DNA of 37,234 nt from a virus. This document shows positions 4,385 through 37,234 of this stretch, piece after piece; within the stretch, counting starts at the first letter, position 1, and each line of letters opens with the position of its first letter. Both the position numbers and the translations under genes were made by a program. Location of the stretch: positions 1-37,234 of IMG/VR virus record IMGVR_UViG_3300025818_000063; one strand, given 5' to 3'. Under the pieces are notes generated by a model, which was not told the origin of the DNA, searched no databases, and worked only from the letters and a program-made list of their open reading frames with translations.

Positions 4385-5028
4385 TGGCGATCACGAACTA
4401 CACAGAACTAAAAGCCGCAATCGCGAACTTCTTGGCAAGAGATGACCTCACCAGCGTCATCCCCGACTTCATTTCTTTGGCTGAGGGGCGCTTGAGCCGC
4501 GAGCTAGAGACGCGCAGCCAAGAGAAGCGAGCCACCGCCACGCTGACTGTTGGCGACGAGTACACCGCGCTGCCGACCGATCTGCGCGAGTTGCGGATGG
4601 TGAAGTTGAACGGCGACCCTGAGATCGTTTTGGAATATATGTCGCCAACCGCCTTGCATAGCTCTTATTCGTCCGGCGGAAATAGCAGGCCGCGCGCTTA
4701 CTCGCTTGTCGGGCAAGAGCTAAAGCTGCGGCCCAAGCCCGACAGCGCCTACACCGTTGAGATTATCTACATCGGCTCTCTGTCTGCTTTGTCGGACAGC
4801 AACCTCGTCAACAACGTCTTGACCCGTCACCCAGACGCCTACCTGTACGGCAGCTTGGCTGAGGCTTACGCCTATCTTCTCGACGAGCAGCGCGCCAACG
4901 CCTACATGCAGCGCTTCACTATGGCGATCAACGAGATCAAGCTGGATGAAGAGCGCGCCAACTACGGCACGTCGTCTCTCCAGATCAGCAGCATTTACCA
5001 ACGGCAAAACTCAGCAGGAGCAAATTGA
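4384..5028 (+). CDS. Head-tail connector / adaptor protein (214 aa)
   Basis: The protein opens with NYTELKAAIANFLARDDL, followed by FISLAEGRLSREL, a pattern typical of phage adaptor proteins that sit under the portal (P22 gp4 / SU10-adaptor type). A beta-rich middle (LPTDLRELRMVKLNGD) and a helical C-terminus ending in an Arg/Glu-rich region follow. Length (214 aa) fits the group. It is coupled to the upstream gene by TGATGG and to the downstream gene by TTGATGA. The family call comes from the N-terminal pattern and position, not from an alignment. Confidence 0.75.
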   Translation: MAITNYTELKAAIANFLARDDLTSVIPDFISLAEGRLSRELETRSQEKRATATLTVGDEYTALPTDLRELRMVKLNGDPEIVLEYMSPTALHSSYSSGGNSRPRAYSLVGQELKLRPKPDSAYTVEIIYIGSLSALSDSNLVNNVLTRHPDAYLYGSLAEAYAYLLDEQRANAYMQRFTMAINEIKLDEERANYGTSSLQISSIYQRQNSAGAN

Positions 5029-5742: not shown

Positions 5743-7841
5743 CCGTTTTTTGGGCTGACCCGTTTCTTGAGGCCACCACACAGGGCAACGGCACAACCGA
5801 CACAACGACAAAGGACGGCACTTATGCGGCGCCTTTTTCTATAGCCGATATTATATCAACCGTTACCACTTCGGTTGGTAGTGTCAATGGCGTCACTATA
5901 GCCGACGGCGATGAGGTGCGCTTAAAAGGGCTTTCTTTTTCTGATCTTTTCGCAAGCGAAGGCAATGTCTACGAAGCCTTAGGGGGGGATGCTTCAACGA
6001 TAAAACTGAACGGCTCTCTTAGGCCGGTAACAGGCAATAGCACGGCAGATTTTGCTTTAGCTGGCTCTGACACCAATAAGTCCAACATTTACGCCTTTCA
6101 GAATAGCGACATCTCTTCGTTCATGAATGGATGGACACATCCACTTTTTTTCGCGGCGCGTCATGACTCAGTCACTGGCGAACTCAATCACAATCTAATG
6201 CCCTTCACTTGGGCTGTCGTTTACGCACAGCTTGGTCACGATTCTGCTAGTGACACTGGTATTGAGGTGTTCCGGCTGAAAGATACCTATGCAAATCGGT
6301 ATTCAATAAACAGCTACAGATACGCATTTAATTTTTCATCCGATGTAAAAATAAGCGCAGGCTGGACGAGTGAAACTGTGCAGGACGGCTACAGCATTCT
6401 GGAGATAATGCCGACCGACTCCTTTGAAAGGTTTTACATTGGCGGGGGCGATAGCTCCACAGACACTTACTTTGACTTGGGGCGCTTGGTCACTCACATC
6501 GGGACTAACACCAGCAGCGTAAGATACGGCAGAATTTATACTGATTTTATTCCCAGCACAGACGGCGGCACTGGCGTTCTGACTGCACCTATGTTCTTGG
6601 TCAGTGATTTTTACGACAATATCTACCAAAACGCGCGGCCAGAAAACACTGAGGTAAAATTCCCCTTAATTTCTGGATGCAATACCCAATCTAATGGCAT
6701 TATAAGTTTTACTGGCGGCGGCGCTGACACTGGGCCACATACATTTGAAAATCTAATCGGCGCAAGTCCTATAAGGGCGGGTTCCTATAATATTGGCTAC
6801 ACTACGATAAAGGTGGGTAATGTATATGCTAGGGCAGAACTAGGGGCTGATGGCTTCAGAAGGTTTACCGACATCCCTTCACAGATTCACGATATAGACT
6901 GCGAGTTTTTAAGCGGCAGTGTTTATTACATACATGATCCAGACGGTGAAAATAATATTTCGCTGTCTTATAGTGCTGTAGGAGACAACACTTATGGAAC
7001 AAACCTGAAGGCACCGGGCGTAGCCCCACTCGATAGTTCTGCGTTCAATACAAATGCCTCAGATCACGGCCCACATTTCGGGCCGTTTTTCAACAGCGGC
7101 AATGATATATTTTTAAGTGAAAAGTCAATAGCCACAACAAATAACTGGTTTGACCCTCTTTTTTTGCGACAAGGCTCACGCTCACGCCCCATTGAATATG
7201 ACAGTATAGGCAAATTGACATCAAGTTCAGACTTCAGGACTGCGACTCACAACATTAATTATGTAACAACGATCGCTGCGTCAGCTACTGGCGCACCGCG
7301 TTATCACATCATTAGCGGAGAGCATAACACTTACGACGGCACACCTATTTCTTTGCTGACTGACCCATACACAGAAGGTCTTAGTTACGCATCGTTGATG
7401 TACAACGACACGGTCAGCAGCACAAATGTACTTGTAGGGCAATGGGCTGGGACAACCGGCGGAGCATCATCGCAGGCGTGGATACCGCTTGAGCTAAGTG
7501 TTCCGAGCTACACCGCTGCGAGTGACAACCTGCGCGCGAAGATTACCGTAGCTTACGCGGACGGCGCTAGTGACACTGCCGATGGCTCAGTGCTTCTGAG
7601 AGCGTGGCACCGTGACACTACTCAAAGCACAAACTTCAGGGTGTATAGCTCATCGGCCACAACTGTAACCGCAGGCGGCGATCCGACATCGACAACTGCC
7701 GTCACCTTGAATTTGAGCAACGTCGCGACGAGTGGGCAGGACGACATCACGAGCGTGCTTTTAGGCATCCGTCTTGACTTTACTGACAACACAAACATTC
7801 AGAAATATTACATCGTTTCGGCTGAGATAGAGACGTACTGA
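5739..7841 (+). CDS. Large tail fibre/spike-like structural protein (700 aa)
   Basis: The ATG at 5739 lies behind GTGGAGGGG and overlaps the upstream TGA; an earlier in-frame start at 5724 lacks better support. The protein is rich in Ser, Thr, Asn, Gly and aromatic residues, with almost no Cys and few long helices, as expected for beta-structured fibres. The N-terminus (WADPFLEATTQGNGTTDT) looks like a conserved attachment region. The C-terminal 200 residues contain a beta-sandwich-like stretch with two ASDTADG/TDNTN type turns. Base composition is clearly more AT-rich than its neighbours, suggesting a module exchanged for host recognition. Enzymatic (depolymerase) activity cannot be judged. 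Confidence 0.72.
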   Translation: MTVFWADPFLEATTQGNGTTDTTTKDGTYAAPFSIADIISTVTTSVGSVNGVTIADGDEVRLKGLSFSDLFASEGNVYEALGGDASTIKLNGSLRPVTGNSTADFALAGSDTNKSNIYAFQNSDISSFMNGWTHPLFFAARHDSVTGELNHNLMPFTWAVVYAQLGHDSASDTGIEVFRLKDTYANRYSINSYRYAFNFSSDVKISAGWTSETVQDGYSILEIMPTDSFERFYIGGGDSSTDTYFDLGRLVTHIGTNTSSVRYGRIYTDFIPSTDGGTGVLTAPMFLVSDFYDNIYQNARPENTEVKFPLISGCNTQSNGIISFTGGGADTGPHTFENLIGASPIRAGSYNIGYTTIKVGNVYARAELGADGFRRFTDIPSQIHDIDCEFLSGSVYYIHDPDGENNISLSYSAVGDNTYGTNLKAPGVAPLDSSAFNTNASDHGPHFGPFFNSGNDIFLSEKSIATTNNWFDPLFLRQGSRSRPIEYDSIGKLTSSSDFRTATHNINYVTTIAASATGAPRYHIISGEHNTYDGTPISLLTDPYTEGLSYASLMYNDTVSSTNVLVGQWAGTTGGASSQAWIPLELSVPSYTAASDNLRAKITVAYADGASDTADGSVLLRAWHRDTTQSTNFRVYSSSATTVTAGGDPTSTTAVTLNLSNVATSGQDDITSVLLGIRLDFTDNTNIQKYYIVSAEIETY

Positions 7842-9061
7842 TGGCGTTACCGAAGGTCGGCGCGGTTGGCTTCTTCGACAGTCTTACGGTCAGCGCATTA
7901 GGTTTTGTTGATGAGGTTTTGGCCGCTGCCGCTACCGAAGTTGTGCGTTTGCCGAAGGTCGGCGCGGTTGGCTTCTTCGACACTTTAACCGTCAGTGCGC
8001 TGGGCTTTGTTGATGAGAATGCGGCTGACGGCACGCCGATAAGACTAGTGCTTGCAGATGGCTCCGCGTCCACAGCGTTTTCTGCTGTGGGGCAAGGCAC
8101 GCGCATTCAGTTTGCGGATGCAAGCGTCACAGGAGCGGCTTCTGTTTCTGCGGTGGCAGCGTTTATCGCAAGGATGTCTGGCGCAGTCTCGCTGCAAGTG
8201 ACGGCTGACGGCACGCCGATAAGACTAAGGCTTGCAGATGGCTCCGCGTCCGCAGCGTTTTCTGCTGCGAATGCCTTCACTCGCAGGCGCTCCGTTGACG
8301 GCACCGCAGCGACAGCAATATCTGCGGCAAACGATTTCACTAGAAGGCGCTCTGTTGATGCGGCGGCTTCGACAGCGCTCACTGCTTCGGGCGTAGGCAC
8401 GCGCGTCCAGTTTGCAGGCTCCAGCGTTTCTCTAGCCGTCACCACTTCGGGTGTGGCGACGAGAATACAGTTTTCTCTCGGCTCTGCCGACGCAAGCCTA
8501 ACGGCGGCATGTCAGGCCATCAGGTTCGCCGGAGTATCCGCATCTGTGGACGCCTCGATGTCCGCAACGTCTGAGGCGGTGCGTATCCAGTTTGCAAGTG
8601 CAAGCGTGACCGGCGCAGCGTCTGTGTCCGCTATCGCGGTGTTCATTGCGCGCATGTCCGGCGCAGCGTCGCTGTCTGTGACGACGACATCTGCTTCGGG
8701 TCGTATCCGCCTCGTGAGCGCCGCAGCAAGCACGGCTGTGACTGCCGTCAACGCCTTCTCACGCATCAGGGGGATGGACGCCAGCGTTGAGGTTGTCACG
8801 ACCGTTGATGGTCAGGCTGTCGGAGTTTTCGTGACGAGCGGCGGCGTCAGCTTCGCGCTCAATCAGGTGTGTCTTGCGAACATTCTCGGCGATGCGTGGA
8901 CTGAGGTGGCGGAGGGTACAGAAATTTGGGCGGACATAGCCGACGGCACGGAGACTTGGGCGACGCAAGCAGACGGCAGCGAGACGTGGCAAAGCGTCTC
9001 GTCACAAGACGAGACTTGGAGTAATGTGTCTGAAGGCTCAGAAAGTTGGAGGCCGCAGTGA
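7841..9061 (+). CDS. Repetitive beta-repeat structural protein (406 aa)
   Basis: Start and previous stop overlap as TGATG. The N-terminus has two copies of PKVGAVGFFDSLTVSALGF, then about 15 degenerate units of roughly 20 residues of the type R-I-x-F-A-x-A-S-V-x-x-A-x-S-A. The C-terminus holds five tandem 10-residue units ending in Trp (AEGTEIW, ADGTETW, ADGSETW, SQDETW, SEGSESW). At the DNA level the repeats at 7846-7915 and 7950-8015, and at 8026-8089 and 8203-8266, are nearly identical. An elongated repeat fibre or tail accessory is likely; no named family. Confidence 0.7.
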   Translation: MALPKVGAVGFFDSLTVSALGFVDEVLAAAATEVVRLPKVGAVGFFDTLTVSALGFVDENAADGTPIRLVLADGSASTAFSAVGQGTRIQFADASVTGAASVSAVAAFIARMSGAVSLQVTADGTPIRLRLADGSASAAFSAANAFTRRRSVDGTAATAISAANDFTRRRSVDAAASTALTASGVGTRVQFAGSSVSLAVTTSGVATRIQFSLGSADASLTAACQAIRFAGVSASVDASMSATSEAVRIQFASASVTGAASVSAIAVFIARMSGAASLSVTTTSASGRIRLVSAAASTAVTAVNAFSRIRGMDASVEVVTTVDGQAVGVFVTSGGVSFALNQVCLANILGDAWTEVAEGTEIWADIADGTETWATQADGSETWQSVSSQDETWSNVSEGSESWRPQ

Positions 9062-16701: not shown

Positions 16702-16778
16702 TGATCGCAGTCCCGATGATTGACCTTATTCAGGTCGGGCTATTGCTGGCGATCCTTGTCATTGTGACGAGGCGCTGA
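16701..16778 (+). CDS. 25-aa single-membrane-span micropeptide
   Basis: ATG 16701 overlaps the preceding TGA and its own TGA overlaps the next ATG, so the frame is stitched into the operon by TGATG on both sides. It encodes only 25 residues: a hydrophobic helix (IDLIQVGLLLAILVIV) ending TRR, i.e. a positive-inside anchor. The double coupling argues that it is translated. A lysis-related membrane peptide is plausible; this is inference. Confidence 0.5.
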   Translation: MIAVPMIDLIQVGLLLAILVIVTRR

Positions 16779-17254
16779 TGGTCGATCCAGTTACCGCCGC
16801 AGCGACGGCGGCGTCAGCCTTTCGAGTGATTAAGGCCGGGTTCTCGGTCGGGCGCGACATCGAGCAGATGGCGGGCGACATCTCGCGCTGGATGGGTGCG
16901 CTCAGTGATCTCGACGAGGCAGACCGGCTCGCGAAGAACCCGCCGATCTTCAAGCAGCTTTTCGCCGGGCAGTCCGCCGAGGCGGAGGCTGCGTCGATCT
17001 GGGCCGCAAAGCGTAACGCGATAGAGCAGCGCGACCAACTCCGCACATACATCCAGTATACGATGGGCCAGAGCGCGTGGGACGACCTCGTGGCGACTGA
17101 GGCGCGCATCCGCAAGGAGCGCAAGGAGACGCTATATCGTCAGGCCGAGCGCCGCAGAAAATTCCTTGAGATTGCGGCGATAGTGGCGTTTTCTATTGTG
17201 ACGTTGGGCTTCTTCGCCCTGATCATCTGGCTGTATTTGGAGAAGAACAAATAA
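16778..17254 (+). CDS. Conserved phage protein with C-terminal membrane anchor (158 aa)
   Basis: The protein begins VDPVTAAATAASAFRVIKAG, continues as a long charged helical domain (residues about 30-130), and ends with one hydrophobic span (IAAIVAFSIVTLGFFALIIW) followed by LYLEKNK. Tail-anchored helical proteins of this type sit next to endolysin genes in many marine podovirus-like genomes. A lysis-accessory role (spanin-like or lysis regulator) is inferred only from context. TGATG coupling to the upstream micropeptide. Confidence 0.68.
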   Translation: MVDPVTAAATAASAFRVIKAGFSVGRDIEQMAGDISRWMGALSDLDEADRLAKNPPIFKQLFAGQSAEAEAASIWAAKRNAIEQRDQLRTYIQYTMGQSAWDDLVATEARIRKERKETLYRQAERRRKFLEIAAIVAFSIVTLGFFALIIWLYLEKNK

Positions 17255-17277
17255 CGGGATCGGCGACCACGACCGGG

Positions 17278-17676
17278 TTGCAGGGGGAGTACCTGACAGC
17301 GGCGGCGATATTGGGTTTGGGTTGGCGTGTATCTCCGGCACAGCAGGACAGCGTCGACCTTGTGGCGTGGAATGGCGACGGCGTGTTCATGCGCGTTCAG
17401 GTGAAGTCGGCGCACCTGCGGAGGCAGAAGCACCACAACCCCTGCTACCAGTTCCAGAACGGGTCCGGGCGGATCAAGAAGACGCTGCCGTCGCTGGACA
17501 AGTTCGACATCCTCGCGCACTGCGCTATCGACGCGAGGAAGGTACATTTCCAAGCAGCGTGCTGCGTGAACCAGTATTCGCAGCGCAGGCCGCCGGGCTG
17601 GTTCGAGACGCCCGATCTGGAGCTAGATAGCTGGGAAAAGGCGTATCAAATCATTATGGAGACGCGCAATGAATAA
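17278..17676 (+). CDS. PD-(D/E)XK nuclease-like protein
   Basis: With the conventional TTG at 17278 the protein has 132 aa. The frame continues upstream to an ATA at 17251 that overlaps the previous TAA and lies 8 nt after GGAG (17239-17242), and this extension (ITGSATTTG) completes the conserved TTGLQGE start of the family. Counted from the TTG, the core is E4 of GEY, D27 of DSVDLV and the QVKS motif (Q41-x-K43), the layout of PD-(D/E)XK endonucleases such as Holliday-junction-resolvase-like enzymes, with Gln replacing the Glu of ExK as is seen in some members. It overlaps the lysozyme start by 8 nt, an odd place for a nuclease. Confidence 0.72.
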   Translation: MQGEYLTAAAILGLGWRVSPAQQDSVDLVAWNGDGVFMRVQVKSAHLRRQKHHNPCYQFQNGSGRIKKTLPSLDKFDILAHCAIDARKVHFQAACCVNQYSQRRPPGWFETPDLELDSWEKAYQIIMETRNE

Positions 17677-18088
17677 ACTGATCGAGATGATCAAACACCA
17701 CGAGGGTGTGGTGCCGCACGCCTACAAGGACAGCCGTGGGTATCTCACCATCGGCGTGGGGCGGCTCATTGACGAAGAGCTAGGCGGCGGGCTGTCCGAT
17801 GACGAAATCGACTACCTGCTGGCGAATGATCTCAAGAGGTGTAAGGCAGAGGCTGACACATACCCGTGGTTTTCTGGCCTCTCAGAGCCGCGTCAGGCGG
17901 TTGTGATCTCGATGCTGTTCAACCTAGGCAAACCACGCTGGGACGGCTTCAAGAAGGCTCAGGCGGCGATTGAGGCGGGTGATTACGGCGAGGCTGCGGC
18001 GCAGATGCTTGACAGCAAGTGGGCGGCGCAAGTTGGTAAACGCGCCGAGGATATGGCGGCGATGATGATAAGCGGAGAGTGGATGTGA
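17669..18088 (+). CDS. Endolysin, T4-type lysozyme (GH24, 139 aa)
   Basis: A muramidase that would cleave peptidoglycan between MurNAc and GlcNAc. The active-site triad of T4 lysozyme (E11, D20, T26) is present as E12 (HHEG), D21 (AYKDS) and T27 (TIGVGR) at exact spacing. A FNLG motif and the WDGFKKAQAAI helix follow, as in the family. There is no signal peptide, so it depends on a holin for export; holin candidates lie on both sides. Length (139) is at the short end of the family. It starts within the previous gene (ATGAATAA). Confidence 0.93.
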   Translation: MNKLIEMIKHHEGVVPHAYKDSRGYLTIGVGRLIDEELGGGLSDDEIDYLLANDLKRCKAEADTYPWFSGLSEPRQAVVISMLFNLGKPRWDGFKKAQAAIEAGDYGEAAAQMLDSKWAAQVGKRAEDMAAMMISGEWM

Positions 18089-18142
18089 TCGTGTGGGATA
18101 TGCACAACCGCACGACGCCAGAGCAAGCTAGGAGAAACAGAG

Positions 18143-28386: not shown

Positions 28387-29799
28387 ATGACACCCAGCGC
28401 CGCCGAAAATAATGATCTCGTAGCGATGATCGCGCAGTTCCGCGACGATCCGCGCTTTTTCGTGCAATCCGTCCTCGGCGCGACGCCTCAGCGCTGGCAG
28501 GGCGAGGCGCTCGACGCTGTGGCGCAGCACGATAAAGTCGCGATCAAATCGGGCCACGGCGTCGGGAAGACGGCCTTCGAGAGTTGGGTCGTGTTGTGGT
28601 GGCTGTTGACCCACTACCCCTGCAAGGCCGCCGTGACCGCCAACAGCGCCCACCAGCTTTCGGACGTATTGTGGACCGAAATCGACCGCTGGGCGCGAAA
28701 TATGCCGCAGGCGTTCAAGGATTTGCTCGATTTCAAGTCAGACAAGATCGCGCTCAAGGGCGCGTCGGACAGCTTCGCCGTCGCGCGGACCAGCCGCCGG
28801 GAGAACCCGGAGAGCCTCGCCGGATTTCACTCCCCCCACATGCTTTTTGTGATCGAGGAGGCATCCGGCGTGCCGAACGTGATTTTCGAGACTGCGTCGG
28901 GTGCGCTGTCCACCCCCGGCGCGAAGATTATCATGTGCGGTAACCCGACCCGGTCGGACGGGTATTTTTACGACGCATTTCACGCCGATCGCGAGAAGTG
29001 GCACTGCATGACCGTGTCGTGCGAGGACGGGGACTATGTGGACCCGAAGTTTATCACCGATATGGCCGAGAAGTACGGCGAGGCGAGCAACGTGTTCCGC
29101 GTGCGCGTCTTGGGCGAGTTCCCGACGCAGTCTGACGACGTGTTGCTGCCGCTGCATTTGGTGGAGGATGCGACGCACCGCGACGTGGAGGCGGGGCCGA
29201 CCACGCCTGTGACGTGGGGGCTTGACGTTGCGAGATTTGGCTCGGACAGGTCCGCTCTGGCGAAGCGGCAGGGGAACGTGCTGGTTGAGCCGATCAAGAC
29301 GTGGCAGAACAAGGATTTGATGGAATTGGCCGGGATCGTGCTTGCGGAGTACGACGCGGTTCCGTACAGCAAGCGCCCGCAGGCGATCTACATTGACGCC
29401 ATCGGGCTGGGAGCCGGTCTGGCGGACCGACTGCGCGAGTTGGACATGCCAGCGGTCGCGGTATCGGTCAGCGAGACCGCGTCCCTGAAGGATCGCTTCA
29501 ATCGCCTGCGGGACGAGTTGTTCTGGGCCGCGCGCGAGTGGTTCGAGGCGCGGGACTGCAAGATACCGCAGGACGACACGCTGATTTCGGAGTTGACCGG
29601 CATCAGATACAAGTACCTCTCCAGCGGCAAGTTGAAGATTGAGAGCAAGGACGAGATGAAGAAGCGCGGCCAGCGCTCACCCGACGTGGCGGACGCGTTC
29701 GTGCTGACGTTTGCGGCGCAGGGTGCGGTTGCGGGTGGCTACTCAAGGGGTTACAATAGCAACCGCGTAGTCAAGCCGAAAACGAACTGGGTGGTGTGA
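28387..29799 (+). CDS. Terminase large subunit (470 aa)
   Basis: The packaging motor and nuclease. GGAG is 7 nt before the ATG. Walker A SGHGVGKT is at residues 55-62; Walker B MLFVIEE is at 152-158 with the catalytic Glu. The coupling motif region IIMCGNPTR follows at about 180-188. The RNase-H-like nuclease domain begins at about 275 with GLDVARFGSDRS (D280), and the C-terminal catalytic acid is probably in SPDVADAF. Length is typical. The stop overlaps the next start. Confidence 0.92.
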   Translation: MTPSAAENNDLVAMIAQFRDDPRFFVQSVLGATPQRWQGEALDAVAQHDKVAIKSGHGVGKTAFESWVVLWWLLTHYPCKAAVTANSAHQLSDVLWTEIDRWARNMPQAFKDLLDFKSDKIALKGASDSFAVARTSRRENPESLAGFHSPHMLFVIEEASGVPNVIFETASGALSTPGAKIIMCGNPTRSDGYFYDAFHADREKWHCMTVSCEDGDYVDPKFITDMAEKYGEASNVFRVRVLGEFPTQSDDVLLPLHLVEDATHRDVEAGPTTPVTWGLDVARFGSDRSALAKRQGNVLVEPIKTWQNKDLMELAGIVLAEYDAVPYSKRPQAIYIDAIGLGAGLADRLRELDMPAVAVSVSETASLKDRFNRLRDELFWAAREWFEARDCKIPQDDTLISELTGIRYKYLSSGKLKIESKDEMKKRGQRSPDVADAFVLTFAAQGAVAGGYSRGYNSNRVVKPKTNWVV

Positions 29800-32893: not shown

Positions 32894-34933
32894 ATGTCAG
32901 AGATGGACGACGTACAGCTTGGTTCGATTGTCAGCGGCGAGATCACTGACGCGCTGAACCACTTCGACAGCGAATACACGCAGGACCGCCTGCGCGCGCT
33001 GGACTTCTACCTCGGTGAGCCGCTCGGCAACGAGGTGGAGGGTCGATCTGCCGTCGTCGACACCACCGTCTCGGACACCGTCGAGGCTATCATGCCGAAC
33101 CTGATGCGGGTGTTCACGACGAACGACAAATATGTGCGCTTCGCCCCGCGCTCCGGCGAGGATGTCGAGGCCGCAGAGCAGGCGTCCGATTATGTCAATT
33201 ACATCATCCAGAACCAGAACGACGGCTACAAGCTGCTGCATAACTTCTTCAAGGACGCGCTGCTGTTCCGTATGGGCGTCATCAAATATTTCTGGGAAGA
33301 GACCGAAGAGGTTGACGAGGAAGAATATAACGGCCTGAGCGAGCCGGAAATGGTGATGCTGCTCAACGACCCGAACATCGAGATCGTCGAGCAGAGCGAG
33401 ACCGTCATGTCGAGCTACACCGACGACGACGGCACCGAGGTGCCGGTTGACGTGATGTATGACCTGTCGGTCCGGGTGAAGCGCAAAACGGGCCAGATTA
33501 AGGCAATCAACGTGCCGCCCGAAGAGTTCCTGATTTCCCGCCACGCCGTCTCGCTGGACGAGGCGCACTTCGTGGCGCACCGCACGTCGCTGACCGTCAG
33601 TGAGCTTGTGGCGATGGGTTACGACCGCGACATCATCGAACAGTACGCGGGCGAAAACGAACTGGACACCGACCGCGAGGTCAATAACCGTTTTCAGGAT
33701 TTAGAGGCTGCGACCGGGGTTGACCCGGCTGACCCGACCCTGCGCTCGGTGATTTATCACGAGTGCATCATGAACGTGGACTTCGACGGCGACGGCATCG
33801 CAGAGCGGCGCCGGATTTGCGCGATTGGCGGAGACGGCGCGTACATCTTGCACAATGAGCCGTGGGATCACATGCCCTTCGCGGTGTGTTCCCCGATCCT
33901 GATGCCGCACCGCCTGATCGGGCGCTCGCTCTACGACCTGACCGAGGACTTGCAGGTCATCAAGACCACGCTGATGCGCCAGTACCTCGACAGCGTCTAC
34001 AGCAGCACGCTGCCGCGCATGATCGCGGTTGAGGGGCAGGTGAACCTCGACGACCTGCTGGACGGCTCCGCAGGCGGTGTCATCCGCACGCGCCAGCCGG
34101 GTATGGTGCAGCAGATTACCGGCGCGTCGGTGGGCGGCGAGATACGCCCGCTGATGGATTACATCGACGGGATGAAGGAAAACCGCACCGGCATGAGCCG
34201 CGCGTCTCAGGGACTGTCGCCCGACGCGCTCCAGTCTTCGACCGCCAGCGCGGTCGCTGCGACTGTTCGCGGCGCTCAGGTGAAGCTGGAAAGCTACGCG
34301 AGGACGATGGCTGAGACCGGCGTGAAGGACTTGTTCAAGGGCATCCTGCATCTTGTCTTGAAGCACGACAACAAGCCGAAGGTCTTCCGCCTGCGTAATA
34401 ACTTTGTGCCTATTAATCCGGCGGAGTGGAAGTCGCAGTTCGACGTGATGGTGCAGGTCGGGCTTGGCACCACGGACGACGAGACGAAGATCGCGTTCCT
34501 GACGCAGGTCGCTGCGAAGCAGGAGCAAATCCTGATGCAGATGGGGCCGCAGAACCCGATTGTGTCGATGGAGCAATACGTCAACACGCTGCGCTCGATT
34601 GCGGAAATCGGCGGCTTCAAGGATGTCGATCAGTTCTTCAATTCGCCGCAGATGATCCGCCAGCAGCAGATGATGCAGCAGGCGCAGCAGCAGGCTCCGC
34701 AGCCTGACCCGGAGATGGTCAAGCTACAGCAGGAGATGGAGATGGACCGCGCCAAGGCTCAGGCCGACATCCAGCTTGCCCGCGAGAAGATGGAGGCGGA
34801 GATGCAGCTAGAGCGCGAGAAGATGGCGATGCAGATGGAGTTGCGCCGACAGGAGTTGCAGGCTGAGGCCGAACTGCGTATGGCCAAGGCTGTCACCGAC
34901 GCCGATATTTCAACCAACCTGCCGAGGAATTAG
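32894..34933 (+). CDS. Portal protein, P22-like (679 aa)
   Basis: The dodecameric channel for DNA entry and exit. Length and order fit P22-type portals: an acidic N-terminal clip/wing region (EITDALNHFDSEYTQDRLRA), the SAVVDTTVSDTVEAIMPNLM and PEEFLISRHA segments, the stem region with RTGMSRASQGLSPDALQSST (about 430-450), and a long helical Met/Gln/Glu/Lys tail (about 590-679), probably the barrel. It starts directly after the preceding stop. Its last 169 codons are duplicated in diverged form at 1-510. Confidence 0.9.
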   Translation: MSEMDDVQLGSIVSGEITDALNHFDSEYTQDRLRALDFYLGEPLGNEVEGRSAVVDTTVSDTVEAIMPNLMRVFTTNDKYVRFAPRSGEDVEAAEQASDYVNYIIQNQNDGYKLLHNFFKDALLFRMGVIKYFWEETEEVDEEEYNGLSEPEMVMLLNDPNIEIVEQSETVMSSYTDDDGTEVPVDVMYDLSVRVKRKTGQIKAINVPPEEFLISRHAVSLDEAHFVAHRTSLTVSELVAMGYDRDIIEQYAGENELDTDREVNNRFQDLEAATGVDPADPTLRSVIYHECIMNVDFDGDGIAERRRICAIGGDGAYILHNEPWDHMPFAVCSPILMPHRLIGRSLYDLTEDLQVIKTTLMRQYLDSVYSSTLPRMIAVEGQVNLDDLLDGSAGGVIRTRQPGMVQQITGASVGGEIRPLMDYIDGMKENRTGMSRASQGLSPDALQSSTASAVAATVRGAQVKLESYARTMAETGVKDLFKGILHLVLKHDNKPKVFRLRNNFVPINPAEWKSQFDVMVQVGLGTTDDETKIAFLTQVAAKQEQILMQMGPQNPIVSMEQYVNTLRSIAEIGGFKDVDQFFNSPQMIRQQQMMQQAQQQAPQPDPEMVKLQQEMEMDRAKAQADIQLAREKMEAEMQLEREKMAMQMELRRQELQAEAELRMAKAVTDADISTNLPRN

Positions 34934-34935
34934 GG

Positions 34936-35817
34936 ATGCCGGTAACGAAGCCATCGGGCGCTGACTGGTCAGCAGGCGCCAGCGCCCCATCGAACGGAGA
35001 GGCGCAACAAATAGCGGAAGAAATCGCCGCATCCTACGGCGACGACTACGGCGCGGGTTTCTTTGATTACGGGCCTATGGCCAATCCATATCAAGGCGCA
35101 ATTAATGCCGCCGACACGGCACTAGCGAACCTTGCGGCGCAGCAGTATGCGTCCGAGCAGCGCCAGCGCCGCTTTGCTGATCAGGCGGCGATACAGGACG
35201 CGCTGGCCTTGCAACGTCAGCGGCAGGCGCAGCAGGGACTTGGCTTCGGGGCGTCTCTTGGTGCCGTGACCAACCCGCAGGTGTATCCGACCCTTACCCC
35301 CGGCCAGCAGGCGTCTTTGAACCAATACCTCCAGCGCGGCCCCGGCCAAGACTACAGCTTCGGCATCGTGCCGAAGATTATGGGCCTCCTCGGCGCTCCG
35401 ACCAGATACGAGCAGATAACAAGCGGCGACTACCGCCCGGTCTTCGTGGGCGATGAGTTTTACGGCAGCTTCGGCGCTGGCCCGTTCGGCGGTCAGGTTT
35501 ACACCGGGCGCACGCTGCCTTCCGACGTCGCGGCGGAGTACGGCATCCCCGGCTTTGAGGACACCAGCAGCGACCCCGAAGTTGTCGCGCCGGTGGCGGA
35601 TGTCACGGGCCAGCCGCGCTGCCCGGAGGGCTACATCTTCGACGAGGACTTGCAGGCTTGCCGCTTAGACACCAGCGCGCCGGTCATACAGCCCCTTGAA
35701 CAGCGCACGCCAACGCGCACATATAGCCTGTTAGATCAAGCACCTGACGGCTTGCTGGAGTTCCAGCGCCGCTACGGTCTGCCGCAACAGCAAATGGATT
35801 TCAGTCTACTGACATGA
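34936..35817 (+). CDS. Variable structural protein after portal (293 aa, second haplotype)
   Basis: Same gene as 513-1535 but 47 codons shorter. Here the central region after residue about 95 reads AQQGLGFGASLGAVTNPQVY, whereas the other copy carries a longer unrelated segment; the N-terminal 15 residues also differ. Conserved features: GAGFFDYGPM, the YGSFGAGPFGGQVYTGR stretch, CPEGYIFDEDLQACR and the end DFSLLT. The mix of fixed and variable parts suggests a protein exposed on the virion. Confidence 0.8.
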   Translation: MPVTKPSGADWSAGASAPSNGEAQQIAEEIAASYGDDYGAGFFDYGPMANPYQGAINAADTALANLAAQQYASEQRQRRFADQAAIQDALALQRQRQAQQGLGFGASLGAVTNPQVYPTLTPGQQASLNQYLQRGPGQDYSFGIVPKIMGLLGAPTRYEQITSGDYRPVFVGDEFYGSFGAGPFGGQVYTGRTLPSDVAAEYGIPGFEDTSSDPEVVAPVADVTGQPRCPEGYIFDEDLQACRLDTSAPVIQPLEQRTPTRTYSLLDQAPDGLLEFQRRYGLPQQQMDFSLLT

Positions 35818-36092
35818 ACGAAGGCAAAGTAAGAGAGAGGCAGGACCGCGCCGCTAAGGCTGAGGCGCTCCTGCGAAATGAACTTTTTGTCGAGGCGTTC
35901 GAGTACCTCGACGAGCAATTCATTGATGCGTGGAAGACCTCCGCTATCAATGATGCAGAGGCCCGCGAGAAGCTGTTCCACCTCATGCAGGCACTTGGCG
36001 CTGTCAAGGGGTACTTCTCTAGCGTGGTCGAGGATGGTAAGTTGGCAAAGGCCCAGCTTGACGAGTTCAGGCGCTATGGCCGCATAAACTAG
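35814..36092 (+). CDS. Conserved 92-aa protein upstream of scaffold (second haplotype)
   Basis: Counterpart of 1532-1810, with the same length and only a few substitutions (NEGKVRERQ versus NENKVRQRQ; SAINDAEAR versus SNIDDADAR). ATGA overlap with the preceding gene is preserved. A helical charged protein of unknown function in the head-assembly run. Confidence 0.85.
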   Translation: MNEGKVRERQDRAAKAEALLRNELFVEAFEYLDEQFIDAWKTSAINDAEAREKLFHLMQALGAVKGYFSSVVEDGKLAKAQLDEFRRYGRIN

Positions 36093-36102
36093 GAGCTTTT
36101 TG

Positions 36103-37110
36103 ATGTCCGACAATCCGCAAGGAACCGGCCCCATTTCTTTAACTGATGCAGTTTCTCTTCTGAACACGCCCCCAGCGGACACCGTGGCGGAAGAGACCAC
36201 CGAGGCGCAAGAGCCTCAACAGCCTGAGACCGAGGCGTATGAGCCGGAGGCGGAGACCGCAGAAGCGACCGCCGAAGGGGATTACGAGCAGGACGACGAG
36301 GGCGAAGACGCCTACGAGGCGGATGACGGCGAAGAGTACGAAGAGGAACCCCCGGAGGTCTACACCGTGAAGGTGGACGGCCAAGAGGTAGAGGTAACCC
36401 TCGACGAACTACAGAACGGTTATTCGCGGCAGCAGGCGTACACTAAGCGCTCGATGGAGTTAGCCGAGCAGCGCAAAGCCTTTGAGGCGGAGCAAGCTGA
36501 GACGAGACAACTTCGAGACGCTTACGCGCAGCAACTTGATCAGTTGGCTGCCCAAATCCAGCAGGCAAACCAACAGGAACCTGACTGGAGAGCATTGGCC
36601 GAGACGATGTCCGAGCGTGACTTGTTTCTGGCGAAGGCCGAGTTTGACCAGCAGAAGGAATACCAGAAGCAGGTCGAGGCCGAACGTCAGCGCATCGCGG
36701 CGGAACAGGCTCGTGAGCAGGAGCAGAACCTGCGCCAGCACCTTGAGGTGCAGCGTGGCGAGATGCTCAACCGCATCCCTGCGTGGCAGGATGACGACAC
36801 TCGCGAGGCCGAGCGCAAGGAAGTGATTTCCTACGCTCAGAAGCGGATCGGGTTTAGTGAAGAGGAAATCGCAAACGCATCTGATGCGCGCGCGATTGAG
36901 CTTCTCTATAAGGCGTGGCGCTGGGACCAGCTTCAAGACAAAGCCCCCTCCGCCAAGAAACGCACCCGGCAAGCTCCGAAGATGGCCAAGGCAGGGCGAC
37001 CAAAGACCAAGCGCGAAGTTGCTAACCGTTCTCGGCAAGAAGCCCGCAAGCGTTTTGAAAGCGCTGGCACGGTGGACGCCGCTGTTGAGTATCTTATGGG
37101 GCGGAAATAG
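36103..37110 (+). CDS. Putative capsid scaffold protein (335 aa, second haplotype)
   Basis: Counterpart of 1820-2827. ATG 36103 is used; the TTG at 36100 only adds one codon and arises from a one-base difference in the spacer. Acidic N-terminal region, central Gln/Glu coiled coil and basic C-terminus are all preserved; substitutions cluster in the acidic part (ATAEGDYEQDDEG). The scaffold role is inferred from layout and from its place before the capsid gene. Confidence 0.85.
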   Translation: MSDNPQGTGPISLTDAVSLLNTPPADTVAEETTEAQEPQQPETEAYEPEAETAEATAEGDYEQDDEGEDAYEADDGEEYEEEPPEVYTVKVDGQEVEVTLDELQNGYSRQQAYTKRSMELAEQRKAFEAEQAETRQLRDAYAQQLDQLAAQIQQANQQEPDWRALAETMSERDLFLAKAEFDQQKEYQKQVEAERQRIAAEQAREQEQNLRQHLEVQRGEMLNRIPAWQDDDTREAERKEVISYAQKRIGFSEEEIANASDARAIELLYKAWRWDQLQDKAPSAKKRTRQAPKMAKAGRPKTKREVANRSRQEARKRFESAGTVDAAVEYLMGRK

Positions 37111-37135
37111 CCCCGCAACTTGAAAGGACAAAGTC

Positions 37136-37203
37136 ATGACGACTTTCGCGACTAGCGCCGCCGTAGGTGAGCGCGAACAGCTTGCCGATGTGATTTACCG
37201 CAT
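37136..37203 (+). CDS. Major capsid protein exon 1 (second copy, cut by window end)
   Basis: Identical to 2853-2920. The frame enters the intron and the window ends 31 nt later, so this is an incomplete copy at the contig end, not an independent gene. Confidence 0.9.
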
Positions 37204-37234
37204 TAGATAGGGTAGGTGCGGTCTAAACCGGATG
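37204..37234 (+). ncRNA. Start of the group I intron (second copy, partial)
   Basis: Identical to 2921-2951, including the P10 strand AGGGT and the guide GTGCGGT. The window ends here. Confidence 0.85.

Follow-up and report, generated by a model that had tools for sequence, protein, structure and literature searches.

What serves as the start codon of a phage gene whose reading frame offers no standard start codon ahead of its conserved beginning? This question is raised by a nuclease-like gene directly preceding the lysozyme gene in the IMG/VR virus record IMGVR_UViG_3300025818_000063, of which positions 1-37,234 (37,234 bases, hereafter the window) were analysed. Its frame is open from a TGA at 17167 and contains no ATG, GTG or TTG until TTG 17278, and an earlier note on this DNA had proposed that translation begins at an ATA overlapping the stop codon of the preceding gene. 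The features concerned are as follows.

16778 to 17254, plus strand: upstream gene of 158 amino acids from the ORF list, with stop codon TAA at 17252-17254 and C-terminus ...LIIWLYLEKNK
17239 to 17242, plus strand: Shine-Dalgarno-like GGAG within the upstream gene, 8 nt before the ATA
17251 to 17253, plus strand: proposed nuclease start codon ATA, at the aligned start of the homologues
17251 to 17676, plus strand: nuclease-like gene of 141 codons plus stop TAA, of PD-(D/E)XK type according to Pfam, AF2, structure match and invariant residues
17252 to 17254, plus strand: TAA that ends the upstream gene and creates the 4-nt overlap ATAA, as seen in the sequence and in the junctions of relatives
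17260 to 17277, plus strand: codons 4-9 (S-A-T-T-T-G), conserved at the protein level and located 5' of the first standard start codon
17278 to 17280, plus strand: TTG (Leu10), the earliest standard start codon of the frame, considered not to initiate translation
17669 to 18088, plus strand: downstream lysozyme gene (Pfam Phage_lysozyme, E 1e-12), with an ATG start and GGAG at 7 nt

With respect to its surroundings, the upstream gene matches phrog_32327 (unknown function, E 3.8e-8) and has a C-terminal hydrophobic segment, judged by eye from the sequence to be a membrane segment. At the window ends, 1-2811 and 34424-37234 represent two diverged versions of one sequence (two BLAST pieces of 85 and 89% identity, offset by about 34.3 kb), as if the record exceeded one genome and joined two strains. 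Direct repeats of 66 nt (spacing 180) and 69 nt (spacing 102) are found at 7847-8267, at the start of gene 7841-9061.

At the junction itself, the ATA shares two bases with the TAA, and sequence and frame were found as the earlier note had described them, including the GGAG 8 nt upstream. This spacing is ordinary for the window, as the four ORFs having GGAG as their best Shine-Dalgarno match show 7, 7, 8 and 7 nt. Also the remark that ATG overlaps TGA elsewhere in this genome was right: in the mechanical, uncurated list of 52 window ORFs there are six overlaps of -4 nt, all with TGA (ATGA at 1532, 10509 and 35814, TTGA at 5025 and 26127, GTGA at 29796). The ATAA pattern alone is nevertheless weak evidence and exceeds chance only once homologues are added. 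Four other ORFs in the list end in ATAA, an A directly precedes the stop codon in 9 of 27 window genes, and internal ATA codons make up 75 of 8899 (0.8%). Because ATAA at stop codons is not rare in the window, the case for the ATA start rests on the relatives. In a predicted fold of 120 nt the A and U that open the AUA are base-paired; a predicted hairpin around the Shine-Dalgarno motif was set aside, its stem, by eye, not being kept in contig L004.

Relatives were collected by protein and profile scans of viral_contigs, drawing on 80 each of the 222 nuclease and 146 upstream-gene matches, and comprise at least 117 nuclease records, including the window and repeat copies of the same contigs. 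Removal of near-duplicates (up to 3% different) and of loci too short at the start left 57 rows, of which 53 were used after L050, L076, L173 and L180 had been dropped as remote or offset. In the remote relative L173 (3001-3405) the overlap is arranged differently, with the upstream stop, a TAG, at +4 and a TTG at aligned codon 4. A DNA similarity search of 16778-18090 in the 'phages' set gave no match, and a protein search of the same set returned a single record, Phage C72C1 (OQ984150.1), with 44.9% identity. The homologue there is annotated as hypothetical with ATG in its annotated start region, and a lysozyme-like match follows some 630 nt from its start; the terminase large subunits of C72C1 and of the window (28387-29799) are 73% identical. 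In the genome_contigs set 28 stretches matched a pattern, none of which encodes a relative.

In the 53 non-redundant rows, the codon aligned to the ATA is GTG in 24, CTG in 11, ATA in 6 and TTG in 3, while the remaining 9 have a standard start one or two codons off (ATG at -1 in 6, GTG at +1 in 1, GTG at +2 in 2). The comparison of base 17253 in sibling phages, for which the earlier note had held that an ATG would be telling, thus did reveal start codons at this position, mostly GTG and many CTG; ATG itself was not simply found there but only at an adjacent codon, in 7 of the 53 rows. One of the CTG rows, L023, has ATG as its next codon. The CTG rows further include L001, L005, L006, L008, L010 and L071, where the codon forms a CTGA overlap with the upstream stop, and L140, L166, L175 and L176, in which the nuclease frame has a stop four codons before the CTG and offers no standard start ahead of codon 10. 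The GGAG is found at equal distance from the start in L001, L004 and their kind.

A standard start is missing between the last in-frame stop and the end of codon 9 in 11 of the 53 nuclease rows (the window, L004, L005, L006, L007, L010, L011, L140, L166, L175 and L176). Among those of the 57 rows giving a usable match, ATG, GTG or TTG was present between codons -6 and +2 relative to the aligned start in all 46 lysozyme rows and all 24 upstream-gene rows, a test not identical in form to that applied to the nuclease. By this comparison the nuclease stands apart from both controls in its start-codon usage.

Since restarting ribosomes may be imprecise, translation might also begin at ACG 17254 or another nearby codon. 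ACG is near-cognate to AUG and here lies one codon downstream of the ATA, behind the same Shine-Dalgarno motif. However, it is not conserved, codon 2 being GCA in L072 and AAC in L147, and the GTG, TTG and CTG starts of relatives align at codon 1 and not at the ACG, so that this reading is unlikely.

A start at the standard TTG 17278, which would shorten the protein by nine residues, has in its favour that this is the first ATG, GTG or TTG of the frame. However, as the earlier note had pointed out, no Shine-Dalgarno-like match precedes it, and such a start would cut off the conserved beginning, namely SATTTG at codons 4-9, and with it the first turn of the helix predicted for residues 7-22. 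Codons 4-9 encode SATTTG in 34 of 39 distinct 18-mers, with variation almost only synonymous, in third positions. The TTG itself is found at codon 10 in just 16 of 53 rows, another leucine codon standing there in 35, and it is absent from L007 and L011, where the next standard codons after the ATA are codons 38 and 21, respectively. Homologues starting at the TTG, which would have spoken against the ATA, have accordingly left no sign, and a start at this codon is very unlikely. Purifying selection on the predicted nuclease protein is evident from codon 4 onwards.

ATA at the aligned start position is not confined to the window but recurs in at least 12 other IMG/VR contigs, namely L004, L007, L011, L024, L072 and the seven contigs of the L147 kind. 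At 99.9% identity to the window, L024 is perhaps not an independent case, as both may stem from one sample or from neighbouring ones; L004, L007 and L011 are 91, 90 and 87% identical to the window, respectively, over the stretch holding the gene. Three types of ATA junction can be distinguished: LYLEKNK* with ATAA in the window, L004, L007 and L011, LYMERNG* with ATAG in L072, and ATAA behind an unlike upstream sequence in L147 and six near-copies. In L004, L007 and L011 no start further upstream is possible because an in-frame TAA directly precedes the ATA at codon -1. L072 and the L147 kind carry less weight, as an in-frame GTG at -8 and -6, respectively, is a possible alternative start; by eye, no Shine-Dalgarno motif precedes this upstream GTG in either.

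A sequencing error, or a dead gene with a decayed start, might likewise account for an ATA in a single record, and the diverged repeats at the window ends do hint at a mixed assembly. Against this stand the recurrence of the ATA in the other contigs and a dN/dS of 0.10-0.16 in the six pairs among the window, L004, L007 and L011, in which the frame has been kept open. The ATA genes therefore appear to be maintained, and error or decay is highly improbable. Hardly conceivable, in turn, is that ribosomes shift by -1 ahead of the TAA and so make the nuclease as an extension of the upstream protein: the two frames do differ by -1 at the junction, but no classic slippery heptamer is seen by eye, and the nuclease frame is closed by the TAA directly before the ATA in L004, L007 and L011 and by the stop four codons before the start in L140, L166, L175 and L176.

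Supported by the aligned starts of the 53 homologues, by the at least 12 further contigs and by the conserved codons 4-9, the ATA start proposed in the earlier note is well supported by comparison. Very probably, the nuclease gene starts at ATA 17251, with ribosomes that end the upstream gene restarting on the overlapping AUA. According to the mechanism proposed here, a ribosome terminating at the TAA would be held by the GGAG, step back 1 nt and, using the usual initiator tRNA, restart on the AUA, yielding fMet-TGSATTTG... as product. No tRNA gene was found in the window, so that nothing points to an unusual initiator tRNA encoded by the phage. Such a restart would be inefficient and tied to translation of the upstream gene, so that the level of the nuclease would be kept low. 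An overlap of -4 nt would moreover force the codon, TGA requiring NTG and TAA or TAG requiring NTA, and of the NTA codons only ATA would still begin with AU.

In line with this scheme, where the stop at +1 ends an upstream ORF of 50 or more codons (the only cases counted), all 18 TGA rows have C or G as the first base and all five TAA/TAG rows have A; L007, cut at the contig end, likewise has ATAA. Given that 9 of 27 window genes have A ahead of their stop, finding A in three of three junction types by chance has a probability of about 4%, and that the ATA has been kept for its function is suggestive only. A survey of -4 overlaps in all DNA studied disregarded those followed directly by ATG or GTG; its other NTAR overlaps with a Shine-Dalgarno motif were by eye taken for chance frames or terminators and rejected. 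The nuclease junction was the only one with ATA and a Shine-Dalgarno motif judged real, and such an overlap does not look general in these phages.

Comparison of close relatives further points to exchange at the junction. The nucleases of L007 (ATA) and L002 (GTG) share 98.1% DNA identity, yet the 84 nt preceding them match at only 31% (ungapped), and L011 has an L004-type junction (96%) yet a nuclease nearer to that of L015 (82%) than to that of L004 (78%). On the nuclease tree ATA needs six changes, four of them forced by starred branches, which is no fewer than with shuffled labels. We read this as suggesting that junction swapping, more than repeated mutation, explains the distribution of ATA.

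As for the gene product, the window protein matches Pfam PDDEXK_5 (PF11645) below the cut-off (E 2.6e-4; 21.4 bits against a gathering threshold of 26.1), and 28 of 35 aligned proteins match this family at E<=0.01. The AF2 model has a pLDDT of 90.1, with residues 1-4 below 50, and its helix 7-22 begins before the TTG codon. Its best match among solved structures is the PD-(D/E)XK homing endonuclease I-Ssp6803I (2ost; Z 13.6, 131 aligned residues, rmsd 3.7, 20% identity; Foldseek E 6.4e-7), followed by a tie between the Holliday junction resolvase Hjc (1gef; Z 9.4, 101 aligned, rmsd 2.6, 19%) and the nuclease part of SPARDA (9qcc; Z 9.0, 121 aligned, rmsd 3.8, 14%); the predicted nuclease thus has the fold in common with proteins to which its sequence identity is low. 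When the alignment was searched against the sequences of solved structures, the best E was 0.52, which is not meaningful. E13, D36 and Q50-x-K52 are invariant in the alignments, and by motif we take E13, D36, Q50 and K52 to be the catalytic residues. With the fold, the acidic residues and the Q/E-x-K motif all present, the protein models as a putative PD-(D/E)XK nuclease nearest to I-Ssp6803I. It is perhaps a junction resolvase, and in rows where the nuclease adjoins the upstream gene and a lysozyme match was found, the lysozyme directly follows, an order of nuclease before lysozyme which presumably resembles that of T7 genes 3 and 3.5; alternatively, the protein may be a free-standing homing enzyme.

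That ribosomes can terminate and reinitiate at -4 overlaps is established for ATGA and GTGA pairs (PMC6728339, PMC10666635). With these coupled pairs, as described there, the nuclease junction shares a 4-nt overlap of stop and start on one strand (ATAA, 17251-17254), a nearby Shine-Dalgarno motif inside the upstream gene and co-directed neighbours; it differs in the ATAA or ATAG overlap and the AUA start. The main text of PMC6728339 does not contain the string 'ataa', and PMC10666635 contains neither 'ata' nor 'aua'. AUA starts with a Shine-Dalgarno motif are in turn described for infC, ccpN and citZ of Staphylococcus aureus, expression of ccpN and citZ being below that with AUG (PMC13009471). 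However, those genes are cellular, and infC and ccpN have extended Shine-Dalgarno sequences, whereas the nuclease gene lies in a phage gene row and its best match is GGAG, 4 nt only; also, unlike in the S. aureus genes as described there, its AUA overlaps a stop and relatives vary between GTG, CTG, TTG and ATA. In S. aureus reporters AUA starts reach about 10%, and up to 30% (ccpN), of AUG (PMC13009471). For E. coli, CUG is given as 0.86% of AUG (Hecht 2017 as cited in PMC11497404), and AUU is put at about 0.3% of AUG (Hecht 2017 as cited in PMC10666635). The output from the AUA may therefore be very small, and a low output of nuclease is to be expected.

Neither AUA starts nor 4-nt overlaps are new by themselves; what is new is their combination, with TAA or TAG as the stop. 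Among openly licensed PMC papers, titles and abstract openings revealed no phage ATA start and no ATAA/AUAA overlap, which is no proof of absence. A predicted CTG start is already in print for ORF10 of phage phiB124-14 (PMC3338817), and for Mecenats66 no such start was assumed (PMC9503643). Tentatively, ATAA and ATAG might represent an overlooked class of -4 overlaps, in which a change of the stop forces NTA and ATA is kept because reinitiation and the Shine-Dalgarno motif tolerate it, the weak starts GTG, CTG and ATA acting as a brake on nuclease expression and being swapped by recombination at the junction. Gene callers limited to ATG, GTG and TTG cannot see -4 overlaps with TAA or TAG, and such genes would therefore be truncated or dropped. 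The nuclease family, in turn, provides natural start variants (GTG, CTG, TTG and ATA) on close relatives, one pair being 98% identical, and thereby a ready test of how reinitiation relaxes the choice of start codon.
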